Shown here: one piece after another, positions 4,953 through 41,018 of the stretch | Layout: each line of letters begins with the position of its first letter | How positions within the stretch are numbered: the first letter of the stretch is position 1 | Source of the DNA: Nitrosopumilaceae archaeon | GTDB taxonomy: Archaea; Thermoproteota; Nitrososphaeria; Nitrososphaerales; Nitrosopumilaceae | Length of the DNA: 47,744 bases | Reading direction: 5' to 3' | Assembly: GCA_021296175.1 (NCBI GenBank) | Contig: JAGWAX010000007.1 | Location: 1-47,744, forward strand | Translations under genes and position numbers: made by a program | Notes under the pieces: model-generated | The model's input: only the letters and a program-made list of their open reading frames with translations | Told to the model about the DNA's origin: nothing | Databases searched by the model: none

Positions 4953-7900
4953 TTACTGATTGCCGTTACCGTCAGAGTATGACGGCAAGGAATCCCTTGT
5001 CGTCTTGTTTGTGCGCAGCCACTCCAAGGTCTTTACAAAAGAGTCTGCAAGCTCGACTGTAGTCAGGACCGGGACCCCGAGCTCGAGCGCCTTGCGGCGT
5101 ATCTGGTACTCGTCCTCCAGCATTCCGACGTATTTTTCCAAGGTCGAGGTGCTCGGTATGTTGAGTATAAAGTCAATCTTGCGCTCGTACAGCAGGTCCG
5201 CGATGTTCGGCTTGCGGTCCGGCTCGGATATCTTGTGGACCGTGCGGACCGGCCCCACCACCTCTGAGATGAACTCCGCGGTGTGCTCCGTTGCCATGAT
5301 CTCAAACCCGAGATCCTTTAGCTTTGCGATTGCCGGAATCAGCTTTTCCTTGTTCCTGGCCCCGCCCACCGTCACCAGTGCGGCCCCGGAATCGGGCAGG
5401 TTGTAGCCCACGGAGGTGAGCGCCTTTGAGAGGGCGTCATAAAAGCTGTTTCCAAAGCAGGCAGCCTCGCCTGTCGACTGCATCTCGACTCCCAGCGCAA
5501 TGTCGGCCCCGTCAAGCTGCATAAAGGAGAACTGCGGCACCTTTATCCCGTACGTGGCGGTGCGGCGCCACTTCTCCTCTGGTATGGGACTCAGGGGCCT
5601 GCCGAGAATCGCCCGGGCCGCAAGCGCGATGAGGTTGGAGCGCACAAACTTTGAGACAAACGGCATGGACCGGGAGGCCCTTATGTTCAGCTCTATTACG
5701 TACACCTGCCCGTCGCTCACCAGGAACTGCAGGTTGAACGGGCCCCTCACGCCAAAGGTCAGGGCAATCTCTTTGGTGTACTCGGTGATGGTATCTATGG
5801 TGTTGTTGCTCAGGCGCCAAGGCGGGATGCACATCATGGCGTCGCCCGAGTGCACGCCGGCGCTGTCTATATGCTCCACGATCGCCCCTATCACCACGTC
5901 CTTGCCGTCGGCCACGCCGTCCACGTCGACCTCCAGCGAGTTGAGCATGAACTTTGATATCACGACCGGGTGGTCAGGCGAGACGTCGGCCGCCTCCCTG
6001 ACATATGTGCTGAGCTCGTCCCGGGACCACACCACCTTCATTGCGGCGCCGGACAGCACGTACGAGGGCCTCACTATAACCGGATAGCCGACTGAGGACG
6101 CAAAGGCGCGCGCGTCTGCCATGCTGGCAAACGCCTGCCATTCCGGCTGCCGTATGCGCAGCTTGTCAAGCTCGGCGCTGAACTTTGAGCGGTCCTCGGC
6201 CCTGTCGACGTCGGAGGCGGCAGTCCCCATGATGCGGACGCCGCGGCGCGCCGCGCCGAGCGTAAGGTTGTTTGCAGTCTGTCCCCCGACGCACGTTATG
6301 ACCCCCTTTGGCTTCTCAAAGTCGGATATGTCAAGCAGCCTCTCCTGCGTAAGCTCCTCAAAGTAGAGGCGGGTGCAGATGTCATAGTCAGTAGAGACCG
6401 TCTCGGGGTTGCAGTTGACTACGACTACGTTCTTCTCGCCGTTCTCCTGCAGTCCCCACACCATGTTTACGGTCCCCCAGTCAAACTCCACGCTGCTTCC
6501 TATGCGGTAGGGCCCCGCCCCCACCACCACGATTCCGCGGTCGTCGGGGCCGGACAGGTGTACGTCGTCGTGGCTGCCCCCGTACGTCACGTACAGGTAG
6601 TTTGTCACGGCGGGCCATTCGGCCGCAAGCGTGTCTATCTGCTTTATGGACGGAGTGACGCCCATCGACTTGCGCCATTCTCGGACGGCATCCGGGGACG
6701 TCTGGCGCGCACGTGCTATCTGCGCGTCGGAGAATCCCGCCTTTTTTGCCTCCCACATGAGGCGTGCAGGTACCTTGCTGCTGGCGCTGTCACCGCTGCT
6801 GCCGTCGCCGCCGTCGGGGCCGCGCCCCCCGTTGCCGCCGGCTCCGGCTTTACCGTCATTTGAGACGAGCCTGTCGGCAACCTGCACCACGTGCCGTATC
6901 TTTGCGATGAACCACGGGTCGATCGCGGACAGCTTGTATATCCGCTCGGTGCTTATTCCCATTTTGATTGCGGCCGCCACGTTATACAGTATGCGGTCGT
7001 CATGGTGCGAGAGGCGTTCCTCTATGTCCTCGACGTCGGGGGCGCGGCCGTCGCCTCCCTCGCTGCGGCCATATACCGTATAGTCCGCGCGGTTCAGTAC
7101 CAACCCGTCGTTCCCAATGTCAAGCATGCGTATCGCCTTTTGCACCGACTCCTCAAACGTGCGGCCCACTGCCATCACCTCGCCGACGGACTTCATGGTG
7201 GGGCCGAGGCGCCTGTTGGCCATCTCAAACTTTGCAAAGTCCCACCGGGGATGCTTGCAGACCACATAGTCAAGGGACGGTTCAAAGCAGGCCGTGGTGC
7301 TTTTCGTAATGCGGTTGACAAGCTCGGACAGCTTGTACCCGAGCCCTATCTTGGCAGACATGTACGCAAGCGGGTATCCGGTCGCCTTGCTTGCAAGCGC
7401 CGAGGATCTCGAGAGCCGCGGGTTTATCTCAATTGCCACGTACCTGTCAGAGTCCGGCGCCAGCGCGTACTGTATGTTGCATTCCCCCACAATCCCCACA
7501 TACGCGGTGGCCCGCAGGGCGGCCGAGCGCAGCATGTGGTACTCGGCGTTGTCTATGGTCTGGGACGGCGCCACCACGATGTTGTCGCCCGTATGCGCCT
7601 TCATGGACAGGACGTTCTCCATGTTGCACACGATTACGCTATTCCCCGAATAGTCCTGCATGACCTCGTACTCGATCTGCTTCCACTCGCCCACGTACAC
7701 TTCTATAAGCACCTGTCCCACCAGGCTCGCCTTTATGCCGCGCTCTACAATCTCGTGCAGCTCGATCTCGTTGTACGCGACGCCCCCGCCGCGCCCGCCA
7801 AGCGTGTACGCCACCCTGATTATCACCGGATACGAGAGCTCCTCTGCCGCGGCTTTTGCGTCTGCAAAGTTTGTCACGGTCTTGCTCCTCAGCACGGGCA

Positions 7901-15267: not shown

Positions 15268-16592
15268 TCACGCGGCCGCGACCCGCTTGTTAAGCTCCGA
15301 GACGAATTTTTTGATCCTTGCAAGCGGGATTATCGCGCCGCACGCCCTGTCGTGGCCGCCGCCAGAACCCCCCAGCTCGGAGGCCAGCACGTTTACAATC
15401 TTGCCCAGGTGCACCCTGCAGGACCTGGAGCCGCGTACGGACACAGAGTAAAAGTCCTCGTTCTTCTTTGCCTTGTATGCCACGCCCACGTCCTTGCCGG
15501 ACAGTCCCAGTACAAAGTTCACGGCGCCGCCGGCCCCCGCGTCGGTTATCTCCATGTGCGCAAGGTTCCGGGTCTTTTTGAGGCCGGCCTTTACCTTTGC
15601 TATCATCTCAGAGAGCCGCTCGACCTGGGACTGCGCAAACTCAAAGGAGCCGGGGATCTCGTGCGGAAACTTCGAGTCGGCCAGCGCGTCGACCAGCGAC
15701 TGCAGGTATGCGCCGTCCTTTTGGTGCCCTACGATGTTGTACGTCATTACGGTCGCGCTGATCAGCGCAAACTGCCTGTCGTACATCTGCAGCAGCCGCG
15801 AGCCCAGGGGCCTGTCCTCCATATAGTCTGTTATGGCGGCGCACGAGGCGACAAACGTCGCGTGGTCCGACATCTTTGACTTGAACGAGTCGTATACGAG
15901 CACCGACGCGCATTCGTTTGTGTTGTGTACCATGCGCACCCCCAGGTTCGAGAGGCGCCGCGCCGTGCCGGCGTCTATCATGTGGTGATCCACGTATGTG
16001 ACGGACACGCGCTTTTTTCGAAGCGACGAGACGATATCCACGAACTCGTCCTGGTTTTTTTTGCTGAGTCCGAGATCGCATATGAACAATTTTTTGAGGG
16101 ACTGGTCGGCCGCAATATCGGCAAGGGCCTTCATCTGCCCCGGATAGTCAGTCAGGACCGTGTCCCCCCCGTGGGCCTGCTTTACCAGCGCGGCGGCGCT
16201 TATTCCGTCCAAGTCCTCCCTGTGCGAGAGGCATACGACGCGGGTGCGCTTTGGCGCAGCGGCGCGCCCATCCGCCTTCCGGATCCTTGCGGGCGCAGCG
16301 GCGCGCCCATCCGCCTTCCGGATCCTTGCGGGGGCGCAGCGGCGCGCCCATCCGCCTTCCGGATCCTTGCGGGCGCAGCCTTCGCGGCGCCTGCCAAAGG
16401 CGCCCTTTTGGCGGGCCGCGCAGCCCCGGACGCCTTTGCAGCGGCGGCGGCGGCGGCAGGGCTCCTCGTGGCCCTGCCAGATGACGCGGTAGTGGCAGCG
16501 GCTGTCCTTTTTTTGGCCGCGCGCGCCCCCGGGGACGCGGACTCCCTCGGCGTGCGGCTAACGGGAGGCTTTGGGGAGGCAGCGGAGGCCAT
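15268..16592 (-). CDS. DHH/DHHA1-family phosphoesterase, frameshifted in its N-terminal repeat
   Basis: The catalytic part reads LSHREDLDGISAAAL (motif I), FICDLGLSKKNQ (motif II), SVTYVDHHMIDAG (DHH motif) and the DHHA1 signature GSGGGHDRACGAI near the C-terminus. Such enzymes are Mn-dependent nucleases or phosphodiesterases, relatives of RecJ/GAN and nano-RNases. As assembled, this frame has no proper start: motif I is reached only from a TTG (16212) inside it. Upstream, an Ala/Lys-rich frame starting at ATG 16592 (MASAASPKPPVSRTP), with its TATA-like box at 16615-16624, runs into three 39-bp repeats coding RIRKADGRAAAPA. A two-base excess in one repeat (five G at 16330-16334 instead of three) throws the frame. 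Without it one 440-residue protein results. Confidence 0.82.
16253..16380. repeat. 39-bp tandem repeat inside the DHH gene
   Basis: Three copies begin at 16253, 16292 and 16333 and a fourth short start is at 16372, so the periods are 39, 41 and 39. Each carries a BamHI-like GGATCC and a GCGGCGCGCCC block. The 41-bp copy has GGGGG where the others have GGG. A 39-bp unit keeps reading frame (13 codons), and the extra two bases break it. Confidence 0.92.
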
Positions 16593-35502: not shown

Positions 35503-37353
35503 TCAGGTCTGCGAGGCGCCAAGCTCCTTTGCGCGCGTATCCATGGCGCCCAGGCTCTGGGCGGAGCCTATGTCGCGCCGGTATTCTAGTACCCCGGTCC
35601 TGACGCACGAGTCGATTGCCTCGTTGACCTTGTCAGAGGCCCCTTGCACGGTGTCCGACGCGGCGCAAAACGCCACGACCCTGGACCTTTTGAGCGTGCG
35701 GTATTTGTTGTACGTGTGGCCGCTGCCAGTGTCCGACGTGACGTCATCGCTGGTGTGATCATGGGCATCAACACCACGATTACTGTCATCAGGGTCGAGC
35801 TCCCTGACAAGCAGCCGATAGCACCTCGCGATGTCCTTGCGCTTGATGTTGGTGGCCTGCTCCACATCCTTGAGGTTTCGCGGCGTGGCAGTCTCCCTGC
35901 ACGCTGCATACAGGGCCGATGCCACAAGGGCCGATGTGGAACGGCCCCGCGCAAGTCCCTTGTCGAGCGCCTTTCTATACACGTAGGCGGCCTTCTCGAT
36001 CACAGTATCCGAGATTGCCATCTTGTCCTTTAGGCGGTTAAGCTTGTCTAATGCCTGCCTGAAGTTGGGATCAACTGGCTCGTGCACCTGGCTGCGGCTG
36101 TCCCACGTACGGAGCCTACACCCGTCACCGTCGACGGCGGCATCGGCGCGCACGCAGGACGCATAGTATGCAGTAACGCCCAGTCTGCCCACCGAGTCGT
36201 CGTCCACCTCAAAGCAGGAGGCGCTAGGGCTTGCAGAGGGATACTCCCTTGCAACCAGATACTTGCAGACGCTCGCCTTGTTTGCAAAAGACACCGTATC
36301 CCCGGACAGCGTGCCTTCCCACATGCGCGCCAGCACCTCTGACAGTGGCGTCTCCAACACGGACATTATGTTGAGGCACTCCGGATCCCCGAACCGGCTG
36401 TTGAACTCCATGAACCTGATTCCGCCCGCGGTCTTGAAGAACCCGCCGTTGAGCACGCCGGTAAACCCGAGGCCTCGTGCGCGCATGTCGTCTATCACTC
36501 TGCGCATTATAGTCTGGCAGCCCTCCAGATCCGAATCGGACAGAAACGGGAGCGTGTCGCAGTCAGAAAAGCAGCCCATGCCCCCCGTCCCGGGCCCCCT
36601 GTCGCCCTCGAGCCGGTACGGGTAGTCGTATGTGGCGGGGGACATTACAAGATGCGTCCCGTCGGTGAGTCCCATTATGGTAAACTCAAGCCCGTCCAGC
36701 TTCTCGACTAGCAGCACCTGCTGCCGGCCGCCGTGCGCGCCAAGCAGTTCTGAGGCATACCTAGCGCACTCCTCGTATGACGCCAGGTGCTCCGGCATCA
36801 CCTTGACTCCCTTGCCCCCCGTCAGCCCCTGCGGCTTTACCACGAGGTGCATGCCGCGGGACTCAAACTCGGATATCGCATCGCCAAGCTGCCGCTCGTC
36901 CCGCACAACCCTGTAAAGCGGGGTATACTCGGGGCAGAGCCGGCTCATCATCTCCATTGCATACACCTTGTCCCACTCTATGCGGGTGGCGGATTTGGTG
37001 CCGCCCACCGCCTTGAAACCTTCGCGTACAAGGGCGTCCACCACCCCGTTGGCAAGCGGCTCGTCGGCGTTTACAAATGCATAATCTACAGAGTGCAGAC
37101 GGGCATATTCCAGCACGGTATCCGGGTCGCTGGGATTGCCGATTGTGTAATCACCGCCGGATCGCCTCGTACAGTCCGCAATGAGCGGGTTTTCGTGGGG
37201 CATGACGGCGTACACGAGGGGCGCGTCCCGACTGCTGCCGTCGCCGGAAGAACTCTGTATTTCTGCCGCGCCTGCCGGTTTTGTCGCCGCGCCTGCAAGG
37301 TTTAGCGCAAAGGAGGCCTCGCGTCCGCCCCCGCCCACCAAGAGAAACTTCAT
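35503..37353 (-). CDS. purD: phosphoribosylamine-glycine ligase (PurD) with a TFB cyclin domain inserted
   Basis: 616 residues against about 430 for the family. PurD joins glycine to phosphoribosylamine in step 2 of purine synthesis. N-domain MKFLLVGGGGREASFALNLA; ATP-grasp VVKPQGLTGGKGVKV, VLLVEKLDGLEFTIMGLTDG, LEGDRGPGTGGMGCFSD and FMEFNSRFGDPECLNIMSVL are intact. The C-terminal domain begins (VTAYYASCVRADAAVDGDG) and is then broken at about residue 412 by some 110 residues of TFB type (see 35791-36117) and an Asp/Thr linker, and resumes near 546 with RTLKRSRVVAFCAASDTVQG and LEYRRDIG, the normal PurD end. The reading frame is continuous. An Ala/Ser/Gly insert follows the first helix (residues 20-45). 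A box CTTTTAATTACG (about 37381-37392) lies upstream. Confidence 0.94.
   Translation of the reverse strand: MKFLLVGGGGREASFALNLAGAATKPAGAAEIQSSSGDGSSRDAPLVYAVMPHENPLIADCTRRSGGDYTIGNPSDPDTVLEYARLHSVDYAFVNADEPLANGVVDALVREGFKAVGGTKSATRIEWDKVYAMEMMSRLCPEYTPLYRVVRDERQLGDAISEFESRGMHLVVKPQGLTGGKGVKVMPEHLASYEECARYASELLGAHGGRQQVLLVEKLDGLEFTIMGLTDGTHLVMSPATYDYPYRLEGDRGPGTGGMGCFSDCDTLPFLSDSDLEGCQTIMRRVIDDMRARGLGFTGVLNGGFFKTAGGIRFMEFNSRFGDPECLNIMSVLETPLSEVLARMWEGTLSGDTVSFANKASVCKYLVAREYPSASPSASCFEVDDDSVGRLGVTAYYASCVRADAAVDGDGCRLRTWDSRSQVHEPVDPNFRQALDKLNRLKDKMAISDTVIEKAAYVYRKALDKGLARGRSTSALVASALYAACRETATPRNLKDVEQATNIKRKDIARCYRLLVRELDPDDSNRGVDAHDHTSDDVTSDTGSGHTYNKYRTLKRSRVVAFCAASDTVQGASDKVNEAIDSCVRTGVLEYRRDIGSAQSLGAMDTRAKELGASQT
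35791..36117 (-). other. TFB (archaeal TFIIB) linker plus first cyclin repeat inside PurD
   Basis: Residues about 413-521 of the purD product read RLRTWDSRSQVHEPVDPNFR, then a complete five-helix cyclin repeat: RQALDKLNRLKDKMAISDTV, EKAAYVYRKALDKGLARGRS, ALVASALYAACRETATPRNL, KDVEQATNIKRKDIARCYRL, LVRELD. YRKAxDKGLxRGRS, AALYAACR and the KRKDIxRxYRxLxRELD motif are hallmarks of TFB repeat 1. The zinc ribbon, B-reader and second cyclin repeat of TFB are absent. The segment is followed by a charged low-complexity linker of about 25 residues before PurD resumes. Confidence 0.87.
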
Positions 37354-37604: not shown

Positions 37605-40600
37605 ATGGAGTTATCTCAGAAATTCGATGCCAAGCGCATAGAATTGCGCGTAAGGGGTTATCTGGCCGAGACCGACGTCGCGTCGGATCTGCTCGAGTCC
37701 GTCAAGGACAGAGAAAAGGCCAGGTTCATAGAGGGGCCTCCTACCATGAACGGCCCGCCGCATGTGGGGCACCTGAGGGGCAGGATAATCAAGGACCTGT
37801 GGTACAGGTTCAGCACGCTGCGCGGCGCGTATGTAGAGTTCAACGCCGGATGGGACACACAGGGGCTGCCAATCGAGCTGCAGGCAGAAAAGGAGCTCGG
37901 GGTGACCGGCGGCAAGGCAGAGGCAATCGAGAGGTTTGGAATAGAGCGCATCGTGGCCGAGTGCAAAAAGATAGTCGCAAAGAACACCACGGAGTGGGAG
38001 GAGGCAGATAGGCAGCTTGGCATATCGCTTGATCATGACAAGGCATATCGCACCTTTGATGACGAGTTCATAGAGCGCGAGTGGAAGATACTAAAAAGTG
38101 CAAAGGAGTCCGGCGTCATAAGGGAGGACTATACCGTAATCGCATACTGCCCGAGCTGCCAGACGTCGCTGAGCCACGCCGAGGTCGGGCAGGGATACAA
38201 GGAGGTGGTGGACCCCTCGCTGTATTATACGGTAGAGTTGGAAGGGGAGGCAGGCAGCGGCCAAGACGGCCGCGCCCACCTTGTAGTGTGGACCACCATG
38301 CCGTTTACGCTGCTGACTGACGCAATGGTCGGCGTCCACCCCGACGAGGAGTACGCGTACGTCAGGGTCAAGCAGGATTCTGACGGCAACGGTAGTGACG
38401 GCAACGGTAGGGTATGGGTAGTGGGCAAGACCCGGCTGGACGGGTTCCTATCGGAGATAAAGGCAGAGTCACACGAGATCATAAAGGTCGCAAAGGGCTC
38501 CAGCCTTAACGGCCTCGGCTACAGGCACCCCCTACGCGACGCCGTACCGGGGCTTGACGCAATGCTCAAGAGGCATCCGGACAAGTACCACAAGGTCGTG
38601 GCCGAGGAGTTTGTCGACGTCAATGCCGGAAGCGGCCTTGTGCACATAGCGCCCGCAAACGGCGAGGAGGACATCAAGGTGGCCGCCAAGCGGGGCGTCG
38701 AGGTCTTCTGCCCCATTGACGACCAGGTGCGGTTCACCTGGGAGGCCGGCGACAGGTATGCCGGCATGCCCGTCAGGGACGCGGACCGCGCGATAGTAGA
38801 GGAGTTGAGGACGCGCGGCGCCCTGGTAAGGATAGGCCGGATAAAGCACAGTTATCCGCACTGCTGGCGCTCCGGACACGCGCTCGTATGGCTTGCGCGC
38901 AGGGGGTATTTTTACGACACCGGCGCGATAGGGGACAACGCCACGAGGGCCGCCGAGGAAGCCGAGTACTTTTTTGAGCAGCCAAGAAACAGGTTCCTTG
39001 GCATAATAAACGACAGGCACCCCTGGTGCATATCAAGGGAGCGCATATGGGGATGCCCGCTGCCCGTGTGGAAGTGCAACGACTGCCAGGAATCCACGTG
39101 GCTCTATTCCAGATCCGAGATAGTGAACAGCTCGGTGTATCTTCCCGACGGGGTTGATTTTGAGCTGCACAGGCCCTGGATTGACAACGTAAAGGTGCGG
39201 TGCGGCAGCTGCAGCGGCGTGAACACGACAAGGGAGGACTTTGTGCTTGACACGTGGCACAACAGCGGCTCGGCCCCGTGGTCGTCGCTTGACGACTACA
39301 CATACCACAGCGACGTGCCGGTCCCGTTCCTGACAGAGGGGATTGACCAGACGCGCGGATGGGCCTACACGCTGCTCCTTGAGAACGTCATACTCAGGGG
39401 GGAGCCCGTGGCCCCGTTCAGGGCGTTCCTGTTTCAGGGGCACGTGCTTGACGAGAACGGCCAAAAGATGAGCAAGAGCAAGGGAAACGTCCTAGGTGGG
39501 AGAAAGCTGCTCGAGGACCACCCGGCCGACATGATCCGCCTGTACTGCATGTGGAAGGCCTCGCCGATAGAGCCCCTGAGCTTTAGCATACAGGAGATGA
39601 ACGCCAGGCCGCACCAGACCATCAGCACGCTATACAACCTGCACCTGTACTTTGCGCAGAACAGCCGATACGACGGGTTCGACGAATCGGTGCACACAGT
39701 ACAGTGGGCGGGCGGCCAGGACCTGCTAAGGAAGCCGGAGAGGTGGCTGCTCTCAAAGCTGCAGAGGCTAATATGCGGAGTGACGGAGAGAAACGAGAGG
39801 TGCAGGTTCCACGAGGCGGCCAGGGCGCTAGACGACTATATCGTCAACACATTCAGCCAGACGTACGTGAGGATGACAAGGGCGGAGATATGGAACGAGG
39901 AGGACGACAACAAAGACAGAAGGCTAGCCATATACGCGGTACTGTGCCACGTGCTCAGGGCGCTTGACGTAATGGTGCACCCGCTGTGCCCGTTTGTTAC
40001 AGAATACCTGTGGCAGTCCGCATTTGGTTCCGGCGGTGCAGGCGGCGGCAGCGGCGTGGTGGGCAAAAGCATACTGCTCTCAGCATGGCCCAAGCGCGAT
40101 GCCGGCATGGAGGACTCCGCGCTTGAAGAGTCATTTGACCTGATGACAGGCGCGATATCGGCATGCGGTGCGGCCCGCATGTCCAAGAAATTGAAGGGAA
40201 GGTGGCCGCTTGATGAGGCGGTCATATGCGTGCGCGCAGGGCAAAAGTCAAGGCTCGAGCCGCTTGCCACGATGCTCCAAGAGCAGATCAACGTCGAGAG
40301 GCTCTCAATTGTGGAGGCGGAGCACATGGGCGGTGGTGGCAACGGTGGCAGTGGCGGCGGCGCGGGAGACAGTACAGGCGACGCTGGCGGCAGCGGCAGC
40401 AACAGCGGCAGCAGCGTCGCGGCCGGCGAGTCGGCCGCAAGGCTGGCCCTGGAACTCGAGGAGATCGGCATGCCTATCACCATAACGGCAGAGCTCAACG
40501 GCAAGAGCGCGGGCCCAAAGGCCAAAAGGCACATGCCGAACCTGGTAAAAAAGTTTGGAGAGACACGGCCAAAGGAGATTGCCGAGTCGCTGCGCCGCCG

Positions 40601-41018
40601 CGGCTCCCACGACGTGCGCGTCGAAGACGGCGTTACAATAAGCCTTGACGGCGAGGATGTTGCAATAGGATACGGCGCGGCCGAGGGATACGCGACTGCC
40701 TCGAGGGGCGCCGGCGCCGACAGCTGCGCCGTATTTCTGACCACGTCAAGGAACAGGGAGATGACTGCAAAGGGGCTCGTAAAGGACGTCGCAAGGAGGC
40801 TGCAGGCGCTCAGAAAGGAGAGGGGTTACAATCCCACCGACATGCTGGAGCGCGCATCGATACTGGGGCTGACTGCAGAGCAGAAAGAGATGCTAGAGGA
40901 GAAGGCCGGCGAGCTCGCGTTCCTAGTCAGGGTGCGCGGGGTAAACTTTGAGGAGACCTGCGGCGCCTACAAGGACGAGGACATAGACGGCCAGGGGATC
41001 AGGGTGTCCGTAGAATAG
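37605..41018 (+). CDS. ileS: isoleucyl-tRNA synthetase
   Basis: 1137 residues, a little above the usual 1040-1070. It charges tRNA-Ile. Class Ia signatures are PPHVGHLRG (HIGH-type) and GQKMSKSKGNVLGG (KMSKS). GWDTQGLPIELQAEKELGV and the CP1 editing domain (WTTMPFTLLTDAMVGVHPDE) follow, then CISRERIWGCPLPVWKCNDC, typical of IleRS. The anticodon-binding region is at about 700-880. Extra length comes from a Gly/Ser/Asp-rich linker at about 908-945 (GGGGNGGSGGGAGDS...) with strong GGN repeats, placed between C-terminal segments. ATG 37605 fits the family N-terminus; CTTTATAATG (37563-37572) is a TATA-like box giving a leader of about 10 bases. Confidence 0.95.
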   Translation: MELSQKFDAKRIELRVRGYLAETDVASDLLESVKDREKARFIEGPPTMNGPPHVGHLRGRIIKDLWYRFSTLRGAYVEFNAGWDTQGLPIELQAEKELGVTGGKAEAIERFGIERIVAECKKIVAKNTTEWEEADRQLGISLDHDKAYRTFDDEFIEREWKILKSAKESGVIREDYTVIAYCPSCQTSLSHAEVGQGYKEVVDPSLYYTVELEGEAGSGQDGRAHLVVWTTMPFTLLTDAMVGVHPDEEYAYVRVKQDSDGNGSDGNGRVWVVGKTRLDGFLSEIKAESHEIIKVAKGSSLNGLGYRHPLRDAVPGLDAMLKRHPDKYHKVVAEEFVDVNAGSGLVHIAPANGEEDIKVAAKRGVEVFCPIDDQVRFTWEAGDRYAGMPVRDADRAIVEELRTRGALVRIGRIKHSYPHCWRSGHALVWLARRGYFYDTGAIGDNATRAAEEAEYFFEQPRNRFLGIINDRHPWCISRERIWGCPLPVWKCNDCQESTWLYSRSEIVNSSVYLPDGVDFELHRPWIDNVKVRCGSCSGVNTTREDFVLDTWHNSGSAPWSSLDDYTYHSDVPVPFLTEGIDQTRGWAYTLLLENVILRGEPVAPFRAFLFQGHVLDENGQKMSKSKGNVLGGRKLLEDHPADMIRLYCMWKASPIEPLSFSIQEMNARPHQTISTLYNLHLYFAQNSRYDGFDESVHTVQWAGGQDLLRKPERWLLSKLQRLICGVTERNERCRFHEAARALDDYIVNTFSQTYVRMTRAEIWNEEDDNKDRRLAIYAVLCHVLRALDVMVHPLCPFVTEYLWQSAFGSGGAGGGSGVVGKSILLSAWPKRDAGMEDSALEESFDLMTGAISACGAARMSKKLKGRWPLDEAVICVRAGQKSRLEPLATMLQEQINVERLSIVEAEHMGGGGNGGSGGGAGDSTGDAGGSGSNSGSSVAAGESAARLALELEEIGMPITITAELNGKSAGPKAKRHMPNLVKKFGETRPKEIAESLRRRGSHDVRVEDGVTISLDGEDVAIGYGAAEGYATASRGAGADSCAVFLTTSRNREMTAKGLVKDVARRLQALRKERGYNPTDMLERASILGLTAEQKEMLEEKAGELAFLVRVRGVNFEETCGAYKDEDIDGQGIRVSVE

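Follow-up and report, generated by a model that had tools for sequence, protein, structure and literature searches.

Organization of the locus

The window, i.e., the whole stretch of 47,744 nucleotides analyzed here, is contig C15 of the source genome, a draft of 1.78 Mb in 166 contigs that is 91.5% complete. Its minus strand carries, at positions 35,503–37,353, a single open frame that starts with ATG and encodes 616 amino acids plus a stop. The product is a PurD (GAR synthetase) with a nested piece of the archaeal transcription factor TFB. According to the sequence-only reading, the C-domain of this PurD harbours the first TFB cyclin repeat, joined in frame at either end; this arrangement is confirmed by Pfam, NCBIfam, and DNA identity to a tfb gene.

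The N-domain, ATP-grasp, and C-domain follow each other in the same order as in known GAR synthetases (TIGR00877; PDB 2yw2, 2qk4, and 1gso), but here the C-domain is interrupted by the TFB repeat. Residues 1–405 (36,139–37,353; this and all further parts of the gene lie on the minus strand) comprise the N-domain, ATP-grasp, and the first part of the C-domain. Matches to GARS_N (PF02844) at residues 1–126 and to GARS_A (PF01071) at residues 128–326 both exceed their cut-offs, and the NCBIfam purD model TIGR00877 covers residues 1–413. Within the N-domain, residues 23–41 (37,231–37,287) form a low-complexity extension that has a shorter form in the nearest relative and is absent from other PurDs. 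Gly/Ser/Asn-rich stretches of similarly low complexity also occur in the adjoining isoleucyl-tRNA synthetase-like frame (37,605–41,018). Elsewhere in the window, an exact 47-bp direct repeat is found at 16,253–16,299 and 16,333–16,379.

A short linker, residues 405–412 (36,118–36,141), leads into the insert, residues 413–520 (35,793–36,116), which consists of the end of the B-linker and the first cyclin repeat. The profile search against TFB families gave a TFIIB repeat match (PF00382) at residues 431–517 with 62.1 bits against a cut-off of 23.6, the single match to this family in the frame. Positions 105–213 of the 312 in the TFB model NF001658 align with residues 412–520 (E 3.5e-35). The nested TFB assignment stands, while the edges of the insert have moved slightly from those first proposed. 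The cyclin repeat is complete and aligns to 1ais and 1d3u; as the sequence-only reading had noticed, the zinc ribbon, B-reader, and second cyclin repeat of TFB are missing. A charged linker, residues 521–547 (35,713–35,793), then connects to the remainder of the PurD C-domain, residues 548–616 (35,506–35,712). In this domain, which the insert splits, GARS_C (PF02843) is matched at residues 553–597 by positions 48–91 of its 92, with 30.7 bits against a cut-off of 34.8.

The AlphaFold model was based on an alignment of 11 sequences and reached a mean pLDDT of 72.6 and a pTM of 0.66. It has the PurD fold and matches solved GAR synthetases: Foldseek, with the whole model as query, ranked PurD structures. 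The insert is predicted as five helices (residues 429–445, 449–464, 473–487, 494–501, and 505–519) with a block pLDDT of about 71–82, lying between two disordered linkers at residues 405–426 and 522–544. The pLDDT is low from residue 405 onwards in the first of these linkers, and falls below 50 in the second and in the N-domain extension. A loop with such long linkers can accommodate a separate domain without strain.

Origin of the insert and the empty site

The insert is a gene piece copied from tfb, and its sequence identity rules out convergence. Over 324 nt (108 codons) it aligns without gaps to a tfb gene of the same genome, on contig C84, with 92.9% identity, while the next-best tfb paralogue reaches 75%. 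The source genome contains four tfb genes besides the nested piece, and no extra TFB-fragment copies were found in it beyond these five. Identity to the C84 gene ends abruptly at both edges, as no common word of at least 11 nt lies just outside either one; an assembler would consequently have had no sequence to join on.

The nearest relative, the sister species G093 (the same sequence as JAJEHG01), has an empty site. Its purD protein is 94% identical to the fusion over residues 1–403, and the neighbourhood is otherwise collinear, with about 91% DNA identity on both flanks. In place of the TFB piece, the same loop contains (GAT)n followed by (AAC)n, coding for DDDDDDG-NNNNNNNNN, i.e., (D)6G(N)9. 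The pre-insert linker of the fusion replaces the (GAT)n stretch, and the second part of its post-insert linker aligns with the linker that follows (AAC)n in the sister. In the alignment, the other PurDs of this divergent lineage, both thaumarchaeal and gammaproteobacterial, show no more than a short turn at this position. The sequences indicate that the loop probably passed from a short turn to a low-complexity linker and then to the TFB piece. Separate purD and tfb genes in a related genome had been named beforehand as a finding that would speak against the fusion. Such an arrangement does occur in the sister, where the separate tfb gene is intact, but it represents an empty site and is most simply read as the state before insertion rather than as a sign of an artefact.

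Comparison of purD among relatives places the insert in the source genome only, i.e., in one of 95 genus genomes; a PurD match was obtained in 83 of the 95. The only other long PurD frame (632 aa, in G107) does not carry the same insert, since its PurD match is uninterrupted. The metagenome-assembled genome (MAG) of a third close species, RHO2_bin_25, gave no match to the purD region except tfb. In this MAG, a 303-aa frame adjoining tfb (L134, 1,854–2,765; G126:C66) is built of reshuffled TFB repeat halves, so pieces of tfb duplicate elsewhere in the clade too. In G009, degenerate TFB fragments containing stops are found about 2 kb away from its divergent purD (G009:C1:185,121–185,554; L110, about 6,780–7,560), perhaps by chance.

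The host enzyme

The sequence-only reading had described a normal PurD N-domain, ATP-grasp, and first C-domain strand. The identity of the host as PurD holds, but it is a divergent one, sharing 27–30% identity with the PurD usual for the genus and scoring 260 bits with TIGR00877, below the curated cut-off of 288. Insert-free relatives of this lineage score 266–315 bits, most of them also under the cut-off. The ATP-grasp and C-terminal motifs are conserved in the alignment, and dN/dS values of 0.17 for the N-terminal part and 0.31 for the C-terminal part (residues 546–616) indicate purifying selection. No second purD was found in the 91.5% complete draft with either TIGR00877 or the fusion protein as query. 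As the sole PurD found there, the fusion is presumably still active as an enzyme. A search for purH, performed to gauge the purine pathway, gave no match in the source genome or in the sister. The host PurD might have evolved faster once the insert was in place, but the polarised changes (13 versus 7) are too few to support such a claim.

The divergent lineage occurs in 8 of the 95 genus genomes and in gammaproteobacterial MAGs (L042–L046 and L069–L077). It is the only PurD type found in the source genome, the sister, two Cenarchaeum MAGs, and several gammaproteobacteria, which suggests that the usual archaeal PurD was replaced by horizontal transfer, in either direction. In G009, the divergent purD is accompanied by a purD of the usual archaeal type that is broken into two frames (G009:C1:4,906–6,106; L112), and in G085 both types are open (C1 and C17). 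These states look like stages of such a replacement.

Proposed course of the insertion

The reading that we consider probable is that a piece of tfb was copied into a hairpin loop of the PurD C-domain by templated insertion, and that it persists as a tolerated passenger: foldable, without a working role in transcription, and in an enzyme that has kept its activity. The short C-domain loop would first have grown low-complexity sequence. The repeat-coding loop would then have broken or slipped, and repair would have copied in a stretch of tfb. No target duplication or other mark was identified at the edges of the insert, and the repair route is one that we infer. A flexible loop, together with a cyclin repeat that could fold by itself, may have let PurD keep its activity. 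The nested repeat would now be constrained to a foldable sequence. This course of events is drawn from the assembled sequence of one draft genome.

Sequence change in the insert and alternative explanations

The main alternative to a passenger is a functional repeat, which would tether PurD to TBP, promoters, or RNA polymerase, or act as a decoy coupling purine supply to transcription. In archaeal TFB, the zinc ribbon recruits the polymerase and the second cyclin fold reads the BRE (PMC7289017). As both are missing, the nested piece cannot act as a TFB on its own, although it may retain some contact with TBP, DNA, or polymerase. The insert holds a complete cyclin repeat that is predicted to fold, and its 324 nt contain neither a stop nor a gap, but a stop-free frame is forced in any case by the PurD part downstream. 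The pattern of amino-acid changes can be read in two ways. The protein sequence of this TFB region is identical in three species, and all 11 changes lie on the insert copy, compared with a neutral expectation of 14.9 (P 0.05, borderline only). They avoid conserved columns beyond chance and fall preferentially where an alignment of 52 TFBs is variable (P 0.004), which suggests that the fold has been kept. However, V468A and I473T, adjoining the RGRS motif, alter columns invariant in all 52, and the branch leading to the insert measures 0.072 against 0.005 for tfb. Selection for a foldable module explains this pattern better than selection for TFB function; the bias to variable columns would also fit retained function, and sequence cannot separate the two.

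Presence in one genome only, evolution faster than that of TFB, and changes in invariant columns favour the passenger reading, and neutral acquisition, one of the options raised initially, fits best. The other two, a link between purine supply and transcription and competition with TFB, are unsupported given the absence of the polymerase-recruiting and BRE-reading parts and an insert that evolves faster than real TFB. A transcription role of the nested repeat is therefore possible but unsupported, and we regard a functional repeat as unlikely.

The age of the insertion bears on a second alternative, in which the TFB piece entered before the split from the sister species, which then lost it and refilled the loop with simple repeats. 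The maximum likelihood tree groups the insert with the tfb gene of its own genome (support 99/92), and an older origin would also require a clean in-frame loss. Nevertheless, an AU test does not reject placement of the insert outside the group formed by the three tfb orthologues (p-AU 0.15), and a few sites agree with the nearest outgroups instead of the genome's own tfb. Synonymous divergence between insert and own tfb is 0.16, slightly more than the 0.14 that separates the two species' tfb orthologues in the same region; the closeness of these values places the insertion event near the species split. We consider an origin before the split, followed by loss, quite unlikely.

A decaying purD, broken by the insertion, is very unlikely. 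The somewhat higher dN/dS of the C-terminal part would be expected from it, but the gene shows no stop or frameshift, although 42–48% of neutral draws with the same number of changes gain a stop in the insert alone. Its motifs are intact, and no other purD was found in the draft.

An assembly chimera of purD and a tfb fragment, conceivable in a fragmented draft that is the only assembly available for its species and carries an insert absent from the sister, is most improbable, since the edges offer nothing to join on, both joins are in frame, the insert is 7% away from its nearest source in the genome, and its location coincides exactly with the loop occupied by a variable linker in the sister.

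Significance of the nested repeat

Many proteins contain nested domains, but the founding event is usually too old to be traced. The PurD-TFB fusion has the appearance of a domain insertion that is rare, recent, and traceable. Like domain-insertion proteins in general, it has a foldable module flanked by flexible linkers and set into one loop of a continuous host domain. It differs in that the donor is a general transcription factor, here embedded in an enzyme, and in that the donor gene, the empty site, and the likely pre-insertion linker can all be identified. With these three readable, it becomes possible to test whether short loops first expand by low-complexity sequence and later take up domains. 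The literature searched contained no paper describing a PurD-TFB protein, and the other genus genomes among the 95 contained no such protein. Domain nesting as such is well known; relative to that literature and those genomes, what appears new is the pairing of these two proteins and the unusually clear record of how it arose.

It is quite unlikely that the nested repeat is a working module, in which case one recent insertion would have given PurD a contact surface for TBP or the transcription machinery. If true, purine synthesis and transcription initiation would be physically coupled. The fusion provides a clean and testable case of domain nesting, and there is a small chance that it really couples purine synthesis to transcription.
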